Part shown: piece by piece, positions 2,085 through 7,067 of the stretch
How positions within the stretch are numbered: the stretch's first letter is position 1
How the letters are laid out: every line of letters begins with the position of its first letter
Assembly: GCA_946479125.1 (NCBI GenBank)
Contig: CAMLET010000165.1
Coordinates: forward strand, 1-7,067
Length of the DNA: 7,067 bases
Reading direction: 5' to 3'
DNA from: an uncultured Flavobacteriales bacterium
GTDB taxonomy: Bacteria > Bacteroidota > Bacteroidia > Flavobacteriales > Crocinitomicaceae
Position numbers and translations under genes: made by a program
Notes under the pieces: generated by a model
The model's database searches: none
Told to the model about the DNA's origin: nothing
Seen by the model: the letters and a program-made list of their open reading frames with translations, nothing else

Positions 2085-5000
2085 ATGAAGGTAATCTACG
2101 CCCTGTTAATAACGACTTGCCTCGCAGCAATCGCTTACGGACAAACGCCACCTACATCCAATTTCACTGCTACGCCAACAACGGTTTGCTTAGGGCTTCC
2201 CGTAACATTCAATAGTACTTCAACACAAGGTACTGCTGCGATTACAAGTTATGCATATGACTTTGGAGACGGAAACAGCGCAACTACAGCAAATGCTACC
2301 CATGTATATTCCTCACCTGGAACCTATACGGTAATCTTAACCGTTCAGGCATCCAACGGACAAGCAGATGCCGAGGTGAAAACAAATTTCATTACAGTTA
2401 ATCCTGCTCCTACTTCTTCATTCAGCGCAACGACGAATGGTTGTTCACTTCCAGTTGGAGTTACATTTAACAACACTTCTTCCGGAGGAACGTCTTACTC
2501 GTGGAATTTCGGTAATAGTCAAACATCAACAGCGCAGAACCCACCAACTCAGAATTACTCTACGGCGGGAACTTACAATGTAACTTTAATTACAACCAAC
2601 TCATTTGGATGTAAGGATACCTTGATTCAACCTATCGTAGTTTCAAACTTCCAGGCTGGCATTATTGCTCCTGCAACCGCATGTGCGAACACACCAGTCA
2701 ACATTCAGGATGGTTCTACAATTGGAGCAAATGCATGGAACTGGACATTTACGGGAGCTACATCACCAAGTTCAAGTAGTCAAAACAATAGTGTTACCTG
2801 GTCAACTCCCGGAACATATAACATCAGTCTTTCATCTCAAAATACAGGAAGTGGTTGTTCCGGTAATGCTTCTCAGCAAATCACCATTCTTCCGCTGCCG
2901 GTTCCTTCGTTTACAAATAATCCAACTACAGGTTGTGCTCCGCTTCCCGTAACATTTACAAATACGAGTGGAGCTGGAACATTTGTTTGGAACTTCGGTG
3001 ACGGATCTCCGAATTTCACTGGACAAAATCCACCAGTACACAACTACACAACAAACGGTTCTTATACGGTAACGCTTACTATGACGAACGCAAATGGTTG
3101 TGTCGGTACGTTCTCTACAGTTGCTGTAAACATGGTTGCTCCGGCTGCTGGTTTCACAAGTGATGTTGTAGATGGTTGTGATCCGCTTTCAGTACAATTC
3201 AGTGATGCATCAAGTGGATCAGGTCAAACCATTAACTCATGGACGTGGATCTTTGGTGATGGATCGCCGAACTTTAACGGTCAAAATCCTCCTGTTCATG
3301 TTTACAATCTAGGTGTTTACGATGTTACGTTGGTTGTTTCAACAACTCAAGGATGTGTTGACACGATTACAATTGATGAATACATTGAAGTAGGGCATAT
3401 TGATTTAGTTGATTTCGATATCGATGCATCTCCACAATGTGCTAAAACGAATATCGATTTCACGAATCAAAGTGTAATTCTTGCACCACATGATCCTGCG
3501 GATGTAACATATGACTGGGATTTTGGTGACGGAGGAAGTTCTACTCAGGAAAATCCAGGGTATTCATATCCAAACGATACCGGTTATTTTGATGTTAGTT
3601 TAATCGTTACTTGGCGCGGATGTAAAGACACATTGATTCAAACGGATGCTGTTTACATTAAAGCACCGATTTCAAATTTCCAACCAGCTCAAACGCTTTA
3701 CTGTAATCCCGCTTCATTCCCTGTGAATGTTCCTGTAACAGATAATTCGATCATTGGAAAATTAACAGACGACTGTTCGATGATCTGGCGTTGGGGAGAT
3801 GGATCAACTACGAATTTTGATGATCCTGACTTTGATGATGCGGACAAAGGATCAACCAGTCATAATTACAATGCCTACGGCTCGTATATTATTAAGCAGG
3901 TTATTTATAATACTACTACTGGTTGTTCGGATAGTACAACGCAAACGGTACACATTTCTCAAACAATTGCAGGCATTTCTCCTCCAACGAACGACTCTGT
4001 TTGTGTTGGAAGTACTTTTGCACTAGACGATAACTCTACTTCATCGCATTCATTCGGAACGTATTCATGGAATATGGGGAATGGTCAAACAGTTACTGGT
4101 TCAAATCCATCTTACGCTTACCCAAGTTTTGGAACATTTACCATTACGCTTACAGCAACAAATTCTGTAGGTTGTGCGGATGATGCCACGTTTGCTCCAA
4201 TGATCGCTCTGGCGAATCCTCAGGCAGCTTTAAGTGCCAATGACGCTGTTGGCTGCGCACCGCATTTGGTAACCTTCACTAATAACTCAGCATTACAAAA
4301 CAATGGTGTTCCGTTAGAATCTTTTGTGTTCACATTCTCAGATAACAATTCTACTCAAAACACAAGCAACGTTGCTACAACTGTGCAGCATACATTCAAT
4401 ACTGAAGGATCATTTACGGTTACACTTGTTGCTACGGATGAATTTGGTTGCGTGTCAGCACCCGCAAATACGGTTATCACAATTACAAAACCTGTCGCTA
4501 ATTTTACTGTAGATGCAGTAGTTTGTGAATTAGAAAACTTCGTAGTGTCCAATACTTCAAGCGGTGTTGCTCCTATGACCTACCAATGGTTTATTGACGG
4601 AGCGCAAGTTTCAACAAGTCAGGATTATCCAAGTTCACACAACGAACCTTCGAGTAATACAGTTTCAAACTGGACACATAACTATCAATTGATCACAACA
4701 GATGCAAATGGATGTAAAGATACCGTTGTTCTGCCTGTTGTAGTTTCAACTCCGGTAGCAATTATTGATTACGAGTTAGACGGAGCGGCAACAAATGCAA
4801 ATGGAGATTTCCTTTGTCCACCAGTATTTGCAGATTTCACTGACGAATCATTGACACTTGGAAATATCACAGGATATTCATGGGTATTTGGAGATGGAAA
4901 AACTTCGGTTCTTACAAATCCAAGCAACACATACGTATTCCCTGGAACATATAGTGTTACTATGTCAATCACGGATGAGTACGGTTGTACTTCGGATACA

Positions 5001-5822
5001 ACATTGGTTGACTACTTAACCATTTTTGGTCCAACCGCTAACCCAAGTTGGGTTCAGGATCCTACAGTTTGTGGTCAGTTAGTAGACTTTACAATTGGAG
5101 CCAACACGAACGTTACAGACATAGTCTGGAGCATGGGAGACGGCGTTACAGTAAATGACAGTACTGACTTTACATATGGTTATTTAGATGTAACAACTTA
5201 CAATCCTACTGTAACTGTTTATGACGACAACGGATGTCAGGTTATTTATCCTTTGAATCCAATCACCATTCCTGATAATGGATTGAATGCTTACTTTGGA
5301 ATTGCTCCAAATCCATCAGACTTAGGAGATGTAGTTGTTTTTGACGATATGTCAACTGCTAATGTTCCTATTATTTCATGGACATGGGATTTGGTAAACA
5401 TTGATCCTTTCACCCAAAACAACGGAAGTTCTGTTTCCAATGTTTACGTAACACCTGGTGATTTCGTTATTACATTACTTATCCAGGATGCCAACGGATG
5501 TTTCGACAGCTACAAAAGCACCCTTCATGTGAATGGTGAGTTCTCAATGCCGAACGTAATTACTGCTGATGGTGATGGAGTTAACGATGTTTTTGAATTT
5601 AAGTATCCGATCTTTGAAAAATTCGATATCATCATTGTTGACCGTTGGGGAAGTGTGGTACAAGAAGGAAAAAACATGACCGGAAAAGTATTTTGGGATG
5701 GTCGTAATAAAGGTGATGAACTCGTAAACGATGGCGTTTATCACTACATCCTTGACGCTGTTTTAACAGATGGAACACCATTGCATAAAAATGGATTCCT
5801 CCATGTATACGCTAAAAGATAA
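2085..5822 (+). CDS. Secreted multi-PKD-repeat protein with C-terminal gliding-motility/T9SS type B sorting domain
   Basis: A 1245-residue exported protein. Residues 1-19 form a signal peptide (basic K2, hydrophobic core, A-Y-G before Q20). Cleavage before Gln fits the known Bacteroidota Q-rule, in which the new N-terminus becomes pyroglutamate. Residues 21-1151 hold about 13 PKD/Ig-like beta-sandwich repeats of 80-99 residues. Clear core motifs are YDFGDG at 58, WNFGDG at 302, WIFGDG at 388, WDFGDG at 478, WRWGDG at 568, WVFGDG at 933 and WSMGDG at 1015. Repeats 3, 9, 10 and 13 are degenerate. Residues 1152-1245 resemble the CHU_C/TIGR04131 type B sorting domain: MPNVITADGDGVNDVF, then DRWG at 1186, FWDG at 1203 and NDGVYHYIL at 1215. 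The family is exported through the type IX system and released or held at the surface. No enzymatic domain is seen, so adhesion or matrix scaffolding is inferred from PKD arrays in general. The ligand is unknown. Start: the only ATG giving a signal peptide. It is flanked by its own candidate promoter and a terminator, so it is probably monocistronic. Confidence 0.93.
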   Translation: MKVIYALLITTCLAAIAYGQTPPTSNFTATPTTVCLGLPVTFNSTSTQGTAAITSYAYDFGDGNSATTANATHVYSSPGTYTVILTVQASNGQADAEVKTNFITVNPAPTSSFSATTNGCSLPVGVTFNNTSSGGTSYSWNFGNSQTSTAQNPPTQNYSTAGTYNVTLITTNSFGCKDTLIQPIVVSNFQAGIIAPATACANTPVNIQDGSTIGANAWNWTFTGATSPSSSSQNNSVTWSTPGTYNISLSSQNTGSGCSGNASQQITILPLPVPSFTNNPTTGCAPLPVTFTNTSGAGTFVWNFGDGSPNFTGQNPPVHNYTTNGSYTVTLTMTNANGCVGTFSTVAVNMVAPAAGFTSDVVDGCDPLSVQFSDASSGSGQTINSWTWIFGDGSPNFNGQNPPVHVYNLGVYDVTLVVSTTQGCVDTITIDEYIEVGHIDLVDFDIDASPQCAKTNIDFTNQSVILAPHDPADVTYDWDFGDGGSSTQENPGYSYPNDTGYFDVSLIVTWRGCKDTLIQTDAVYIKAPISNFQPAQTLYCNPASFPVNVPVTDNSIIGKLTDDCSMIWRWGDGSTTNFDDPDFDDADKGSTSHNYNAYGSYIIKQVIYNTTTGCSDSTTQTVHISQTIAGISPPTNDSVCVGSTFALDDNSTSSHSFGTYSWNMGNGQTVTGSNPSYAYPSFGTFTITLTATNSVGCADDATFAPMIALANPQAALSANDAVGCAPHLVTFTNNSALQNNGVPLESFVFTFSDNNSTQNTSNVATTVQHTFNTEGSFTVTLVATDEFGCVSAPANTVITITKPVANFTVDAVVCELENFVVSNTSSGVAPMTYQWFIDGAQVSTSQDYPSSHNEPSSNTVSNWTHNYQLITTDANGCKDTVVLPVVVSTPVAIIDYELDGAATNANGDFLCPPVFADFTDESLTLGNITGYSWVFGDGKTSVLTNPSNTYVFPGTYSVTMSITDEYGCTSDTTLVDYLTIFGPTANPSWVQDPTVCGQLVDFTIGANTNVTDIVWSMGDGVTVNDSTDFTYGYLDVTTYNPTVTVYDDNGCQVIYPLNPITIPDNGLNAYFGIAPNPSDLGDVVVFDDMSTANVPIISWTWDLVNIDPFTQNNGSSVSNVYVTPGDFVITLLIQDANGCFDSYKSTLHVNGEFSMPNVITADGDGVNDVFEFKYPIFEKFDIIIVDRWGSVVQEGKNMTGKVFWDGRNKGDELVNDGVYHYILDAVLTDGTPLHKNGFLHVYAKR
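2145..5537 (+). repeat. Array of about 13 PKD/Ig-like protein repeats
   Basis: Approximate repeat bounds read from the translation: 2145-2405, 2406-2648, 2649-2900, 2901-3140, 3141-3404, 3405-3668, 3669-3965, 3966-4217, 4218-4493, 4494-4754, 4755-5033, 5034-5282 and 5283-5537. A typical unit opens with F-x-x-x-x-x-x-C-x-P-x-x-V-x-F-x-N-x-S, has a W-x-F-G-D-G core, then Y-x-x-x-G-x-Y-x-V-x-L, and closes with an x-G-C-x-D turn. Units 2-12 each carry one Cys near the start and one in the closing turn. Units 4 and 5 share an almost identical SPNFxGQNPPVH segment. At DNA level the repeats have diverged strongly at third positions, so this is an old array, not a recent tandem expansion. Borders are my estimates to within several residues. 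Confidence 0.85.
5538..5819 (+). other. CHU_C-like T9SS type B sorting domain (protein residues 1152-1245)
   Basis: This 94-residue segment follows the last PKD unit and contains no Cys. It keeps the family's landmarks: an opening P-N-V-I-T, a D-G-D-G-x-N-D acidic loop (1162-1168), an R-W-G turn at 1187-1189, W-D-G at 1204-1206, and D-G-V-Y-x-Y close to the end. In the common form the loop reads TPNGDGIND; here it is TADGDGVND, which adds an acidic side chain. Known members direct cargo across the outer membrane through the type IX secretion machinery. The matching secretion genes are not in the window. Confidence 0.85.
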
Positions 5823-6192: not shown

Positions 6193-6200
6193 TAACTTTG
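6193..6200 (+). promoter_or_regulatory. Candidate -7 box for rnhA, almost touching the start codon
   Basis: TAACTTTG is a perfect match to the Bacteroidota -7 consensus TAnnTTTG and ends 3 nt before the ATG at 6204. Transcription normally starts 5-8 nt after this box, which would place the first base at or just inside the ATG. No good -33 TTTG lies 17-23 nt upstream (the nearest is CGTG at 6172-6175), so the match might be chance. Confidence 0.4.
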
Positions 6201-6203
6201 AAT

Positions 6204-6671
6204 ATGTCCGATTATATTCACTTGTACACAGATGGTTCTTCAAGGGGAAATCCAGGTCCGGGAGGATACGGGATTGTGCTAAGATACAAAGATTATTACA
6301 AAGAACTGTCTACAGGGTACAGACTGACCACAAATAACCGAATGGAATTGCTGGCTGTAATTCACGGACTGCAGCAATTAAAAACCAATACGATTCCCGT
6401 TCGCGTCTTTTCAGATTCTAAATATGTAATTGACACGATTCAAAAAGGATGGCTGAACGGATGGCTTAAAACCAACTTTAAAGGAAAAAAGAACAAAGAC
6501 CTTTGGTTGGAGTACATTAATGCATCAAAAGGCTTAAAAGTGGAGTTCTTTTGGGTCAAAGGACACAATGGTCATCCGGAAAATGAGAAATGTGATGAAT
6601 TAGCCGTAAATGCCGCAACGGGCTCAGGCCTTCTTGTTGATCAGGGTTACGAAGCGGAACACGTAAAATAA
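6204..6671 (+). CDS. rnhA: Ribonuclease HI
   Basis: RNase HI cuts the RNA strand of RNA:DNA hybrids, removing R-loops and replication primers. The protein has 155 residues, the same length as the E. coli enzyme. All catalytic residues are present: D10 (YTDGS), E48 (NNRMEL), D71 (FSDSKYV), H121 (WVKGHNGHPENE) and D131 (KCDELA). The basic protrusion is kept (WLNGWLKTNFKGKKNKDLW, residues 83-101), and there is no extra N-terminal hybrid-binding domain. I chose ATG at 6204 because it puts D10 exactly at the family position. An in-frame TTG at 6198 would add two residues, but it is part of the -7 box TAACTTTG. No Shine-Dalgarno is seen. The stop codon lies 4 nt from that of the convergent gene on the minus strand, leaving no room for a terminator between them. 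Confidence 0.97.
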   Translation: MSDYIHLYTDGSSRGNPGPGGYGIVLRYKDYYKELSTGYRLTTNNRMELLAVIHGLQQLKTNTIPVRVFSDSKYVIDTIQKGWLNGWLKTNFKGKKNKDLWLEYINASKGLKVEFFWVKGHNGHPENEKCDELAVNAATGSGLLVDQGYEAEHVK

Positions 6672-6675
6672 GTCA

Positions 6676-7067
6676 CTACCCCACTTTTGCCAAACAAGAT
6701 TTCAGAAAAGTATAGATTAATGGATGCGGTAATTCTCTTGTGGAACTGATTTGCGGACAAAAACCACAGGAAACGAAAAACGGTTTAGATTTCAGACTAA
6801 TGATCTCAGGTTCCTCAAACTGATTGAACGCTTCGATATCAACCCCTAAACCTGAAAGGGCGTCTACCAGTTGTGGATACATTGAATATCTTGTAGAAGT
6901 AAGTTCAACACTGCTGTGCGTTGAATACAAATGCTTCAATTCAGAACTTTGGGGTATAATCGTTACTTGTTCAAATTGATTTCCATCAACAAGATTATCA
7001 GAGATCAATTTCTCTCCTTGAGCATTTAGATTGTTTTTCTGTACAACAACATCCAACAAAGCTTTGT
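6676..7067 (-). CDS. CTP-synthase amidotransferase-like protein, C-terminal part (5' end outside window)
   Basis: The minus-strand frame is open to the right edge, giving at least 129 residues ending at the TAG at 6678-6676. The TTG at 7059 is not needed as a start. The last ~80 residues follow the pattern of the CTP synthase glutamine-amidotransferase end: STRYSMYP (compare HRYEVN), LVDALSGLGVDIEAF, then E-I-I-S-L-x-x-x-P-F-F-V and P-H-P-L-I-Y-x-F-L-K-x-x-L. Yet the catalytic segment, normally QFHPExxS, reads GFCPQISS, so both the His and the Glu are gone, and with the nearby Cys it forms CGFC, a CxxC (codons 6768-6757). It is probably not a normal glutaminase and not PyrG itself. I recall a family of stand-alone proteins named for the CTP synthase C-terminal region, some selenoproteins, which may be the home of this gene, but this is unchecked. 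The nucleophile-elbow region lies outside the window. Function unknown. Confidence 0.65.
   Translation of the reverse strand, partial: KALLDVVVQKNNLNAQGEKLISDNLVDGNQFEQVTIIPQSSELKHLYSTHSSVELTSTRYSMYPQLVDALSGLGVDIEAFNQFEEPEIISLKSKPFFVSCGFCPQISSTRELPHPLIYTFLKSCLAKVG

Follow-up and report, generated by a model that had tools for sequence, protein, structure and literature searches.

The stretch of DNA analysed here, a window of 7,067 nucleotides, ends in a gene that probably encodes a pseudo-enzyme kept as a binding protein: a class I glutamine amidotransferase domain, derived from CTP synthase, that stands alone and has lost its catalysis. The window end cuts this pseudo-glutaminase gene, and its 5' end lies beyond. 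For the full gene, whose recovery had been proposed, we obtained the closest full-length homologue among those listed, P0001 (224 aa), which is 99% identical to the 129-residue part in the window. Residue numbering is that of P0001. The open frames of pseudo-glutaminase genes are 224-267 aa long in the genomes of the family to which genome G001 belongs. The database source calls the homologues 'CTP synthase (UTP-ammonia lyase)', a name contradicted by the lost catalytic triad and the missing synthase domain. The following features are considered.

6676..7065, minus strand: pseudo-glutaminase gene, C-terminal part, 129 codons and stop (residues 96-224 of about 224).
6742..6774, minus strand: VSCGFCPQISS, in the place of the (Y/F)HPE motif of PyrG, from alignment to PyrGs.
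6766..6768, minus strand: codon of C195, a column that is Cys in 2 of 32 Bacteroidota PyrGs and in the E. coli enzyme as well.
6757..6759, minus strand: codon of C198, replacing the catalytic His of PyrG.
6751..6753, minus strand: codon of Q200, replacing the catalytic Glu of PyrG (position derived from the residue numbering).
6772-6783, minus strand: PFFV flank.
6715-6729, minus strand: PHPLI flank.
6889..6891, minus strand: R154, matching R470 of E. coli; 211 of the 212 family rows have Arg here and 1 has Lys.
6904..6906, minus strand: E149, matching E465 of E. coli; all of the best 120 of 169 homologues have Glu here (position derived from the residue numbering).
6198..6671, plus strand: ribonuclease HI, a convergent neighbour.

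The ribonuclease HI gene adjoins the pseudo-glutaminase gene in 28 of 75 loci (the window included, with short flanks) and is not counted as a part of the system. Elsewhere in the window, positions 2085-5822 on the plus strand encode a protein of 1245 aa in which PKD repeats are combined with a CHU_C type IX secretion domain. Positions 1-1950, also on the plus strand, hold the 3' part of a gene which we read, from its sequence, as probably that of the cobalamin-dependent methionine synthase (MetH).

The nucleophile elbow corresponds to residues 90-96, just outside the window end. There P0001 reads VTGEGYK against GICLGMQ of PyrG, so that the catalytic Cys is replaced by Gly, in a gapless block of 15 residues between proteins of low overall identity (17-20% to CTP synthases in the PDB). 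The Cys-His-Glu triad of PyrG is absent from P0001, which has Gly, Cys and Gln instead, and judged from these residues the known glutaminase mechanism is not open to the pseudo-glutaminase. The nucleophile column was followed over 234 full-length rows (homologues of 200-300 aa from the matches listed, plus 74 loci, some of them near-duplicates) and contains Gly in 212, Asp in 10, Ser in 10 and Cys in 2. The 212 rows with a Gly elbow, all of which have PQ instead of PE, are called the family below; the other 22 are excluded from the Cys counts. The former CTP-synthase glutaminase fold suggested in the preliminary description agrees with this identity to CTP synthases and with the predicted model, which has the class I glutamine amidotransferase fold. 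Pfam gave no match over cut-off, PF00117 included, for either P0001 or the window fragment.

An exchange of His for Cys and of Glu for Gln at the HPE site had been claimed from the window alone, and it is real. The VSCGFCPQISS segment aligns without gaps with the HPE segment of 12 Bacteroidota PyrGs, and FVACQFHPE of E. coli PyrG also aligns without gaps, its His falling on C198 and its Glu on Q200. In E. coli PyrG these are H515 and E517. The flanks typical of the family, PFFV and PHPLI, are intact beside the lost His and Glu, as described. The second Cys three residues before is present as C195 but is not an exchange: the column is itself variable in PyrG (V 21, A 5, C 2, G 2, T 1 and S 1 in the 32 Bacteroidota PyrGs) and is also Cys in E. 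coli, so only C198 counts. Conservation of the two Cys is near-universal among the best 120 of 169 homologues, with C195 kept in 117 and C198 in 118, but neither holds family-wide. P199 and Q200 are invariant in these 120. The motif thus goes beyond chance, but 55 to 59 of the 224 columns are conserved at least as well as the CxxC positions.

The family HMM search gave NF004836 (PRK06186), the CTP synthase C-terminal region-related (seleno)protein, as the best NCBIfam match of P0001, and with it the '(seleno)protein' relative that the preliminary description had mentioned. The scores, 95.1 bits for P0001 and 47.8 bits for the window fragment, stay below the curated cut-off of 260. NF004836 is likewise a stand-alone amidotransferase domain, of about 230 aa, and in both proteins an N-terminal GD(F/Y)N replaces GKY. 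Its Iodobacter members P0163 (330.9 bits, over the cut-off) and P0166 are the only two of the 234 rows with Cys at the nucleophile column. They keep the elbow Cys (GTCGG) and the Glu, with His replaced by Gln (FQPE), whereas in the window family the elbow is Gly, the Glu place Gln and the His place mostly Cys, and the GxC/UxG elbow of NF004836 is not found in P0001. Table 1 of PMC13188914 gives NF004836 as a selenoprotein with the motif GxUxG, a listing that traces to the deep-Sep paper (PMC12013277). Because the elbow is GTCGG in P0163 and P0166, GxUxG would fit the nucleophile elbow and neither C195 nor C198. Homologues with Sec at either Cys, which the preliminary description had envisaged, did not appear, since no in-frame stop (TGA/Sec) lies inside the full-length matches listed (59 in G001's family and 71 places in the order).

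More distant relatives with a Ser or Asp elbow (P0126, P0130-P0137, L088; P0121-P0128, L084-L086) also stand alone with a changed triad. They differ in their motifs, GTSxGCQ with F(H/L)PQ, or (T/A/S)DKTYK with FNP(L/I) and similar. In L088:4611-5348(-) and P0130 the nucleophile is Ser with a Cys three residues later, and the His is kept in some such relatives (FHPQ). Judged by these residues, the GTSxGCQ relatives are an intermediate step of triad loss. A graded series for studying the stepwise loss of a glutaminase is thereby available: Cys/His/Glu in PyrG, Cys/Gln/Glu in NF004836, Ser/His or Leu/Gln, and Gly/Cys/Gln.

The preliminary description took the CxxC for a redox or metal centre. If it were a working thiol centre, the thiol would have left the nucleophile elbow for the His loop on the opposite side. 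Both Cys are present in 165 of the 212 family rows and in nearly all of the best 120 of 169 homologues, and the related family has a Sec form. Against this, the CxxC is incomplete or absent in 47 of the 212 rows (C195 only in 9, C198 only in 26, neither in 12). Ser, Thr, Tyr, Leu and others serve as substitutes, position 198 being Ser, Tyr, Thr or Leu in some rows, and the variants include CGFSPQ, CAFTPQ, CAFYPQ, LSYYPQ, SMSLPQ, ATGFCPQ and TMFCPQ. On a quick tree of 107 rows less than 80% identical, 11 of them from outside the family and with the motif columns removed, at least 8 state changes are counted for each of C195 and C198; both Cys occur in 64 rows, C195 alone in 5 and C198 alone in 17. 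Together with the lack of in-frame stops in the full-length matches listed, this makes a thiol centre highly improbable. The deep branches bear T..C, so the Cys pair appears secondary. This suggests an older C198 and a later C195, although the tree is limited by long branches and weakly resolved forks. A sign test for coupled change of the two positions had only 4 supported independent pairs and is uninformative on joint loss. We infer that the CxxC is no catalytic dyad but lines the dead pocket in one branch of the family.

The pocket itself is under strong constraint. Residues matching G352, E465 and R470 of E. coli CTP synthase persist in 49/49, 49/49 and 48/49 rows, and variability at 13 old-site columns, which we picked while viewing the alignment, is below that of random columns (P 0.003; P 0.03 for a 9-column subset). 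R470 of E. coli CTP synthase is a glutamine ligand. In fly CTPS, GTP is contacted by Lys306, Arg479 and Arg481 (PMC8325340). On our own mapping by spacing, Arg481 would match E. coli R470, so the kept Arg does not name the ligand. It is rather unlikely that the protein is a regulatory or decoy CTP synthase subunit that binds PyrG or replaces it in tetramers. Fold and ancestry are shared with PyrG, which is present in the same genomes (in G001 and G002 its own gene has an open frame of 545-550 aa). However, compared with PyrG the window protein has no synthase domain and no triad, 48 of 49 rows have Asp for the GTP-site Lys of the GKY motif, the residue matching R468 has been lost (mapped by us from the fly contacts), and no linkage to pyrG is seen in the neighbour clusters. 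A different reaction in the same pocket, carried out by new catalytic residues such as Lys at the Q383 column or Gln at the Glu column, would be in keeping with the strong constraint and with the make-up of the Q383 column, which is Lys or Arg in 47 of 49 rows and in 117 of 118 close homologues. This is nevertheless quite unlikely, as we recognised no arrangement of residues known from an enzyme and Pfam finds nothing in P0001. A decaying, functionless remnant, as the lost triad might indicate, is hardly credible: purifying selection on the gene is strong, with dN/dS of 0.005-0.032 (estimable in 7 of 9 pairs, with dS saturated in several), the gene is present in 59 of 60 genomes of G001's family, at 38-70% identity, and the matches listed contain no in-frame stops. 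These same values bear out the original reading of exchange and not decay. Under the preferred reading, a dead domain kept for binding, the old glutamine pocket would still bind a ligand or partner without chemistry.

Among the matches listed, the named ones are Crocinitomicaceae and Fluviicola. Of 199 genomes covering the order, 66 carry the gene with a score of at least 231 bits, and 5 hold a distant relative scoring 61-114 bits; other matches were to PyrG, or there were none. The gene is accompanied by that of an unannotated lipoprotein of about 215 aa (for example L007:836-1456(+), L126 and L127), with a lipobox Cys invariant in 27 of 27 rows, followed by the consensus C.KHEVIPAP. A lipoprotein profile built from the upstream genes in 58 of 74 loci matches over its full length, with at least 187 bits, in 66 of the 199 genomes, after dropping 3 more with short matches only (21-24 bits), and these are the identical 66 genomes that carry the pseudo-glutaminase. 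In all 66 the lipoprotein gene lies upstream on the same strand, with a gap of 15-336 bases (median about 48) between match ends; one stop codon falls within each of 5 lipoprotein matches among the 66, and genome G129 has a second, partial match (130.6 bits) elsewhere. In a sample of 395 genomes from the phylum, with few candidates scored per genome so that weak copies could be missed, both profiles match the same 2 genomes (E 1e-13 or better). In the 5 genomes with distant Ser- or Asp-elbow copies no lipoprotein was found; the lipoprotein itself gave no named family by Pfam or NCBIfam and no convincing fold match. The window is cut before the lipoprotein gene; its organism presumably has the pair as well.

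The pairing may in part reflect the common descent of one family, yet the order was kept while other neighbours moved; as linkage controls, a small upstream gene lies within 5 kb of the pair in 33 of 65, and ribonuclease HI adjoins the gene in the 28 of 75 loci given above. As a clue to function this pairing tells more than the CxxC. The strong pocket constraint, the universal presence and the fixed partner suggest a binding role tied to the lipoprotein. The cytosolic pseudo-glutaminase would then serve a process involving the co-encoded envelope lipoprotein, through regulation or through help with making or exporting it. A two-part cross-envelope system confined to one Bacteroidota family, in which the pseudo-glutaminase senses a ligand or acts as a chaperone for one dedicated lipoprotein that never occurs without it, is a possible but tentative extension, and co-encoding does not require a protein of the cytosol and a lipoprotein of the envelope to act jointly. 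The two genes are a core pair of a whole bacterial family, and their function is open to genetic testing.

The small upstream gene encodes a very variable protein of about 106 aa with a conserved C-terminal (Q/L)(I/L)RA (L007:423-734(+), L128), which is present in 99 of the 199 genomes at E 0.001. A second small protein is encoded between this gene and that of the lipoprotein in 13 loci (L037-L049 region, for example L039:2365-2745(+)).
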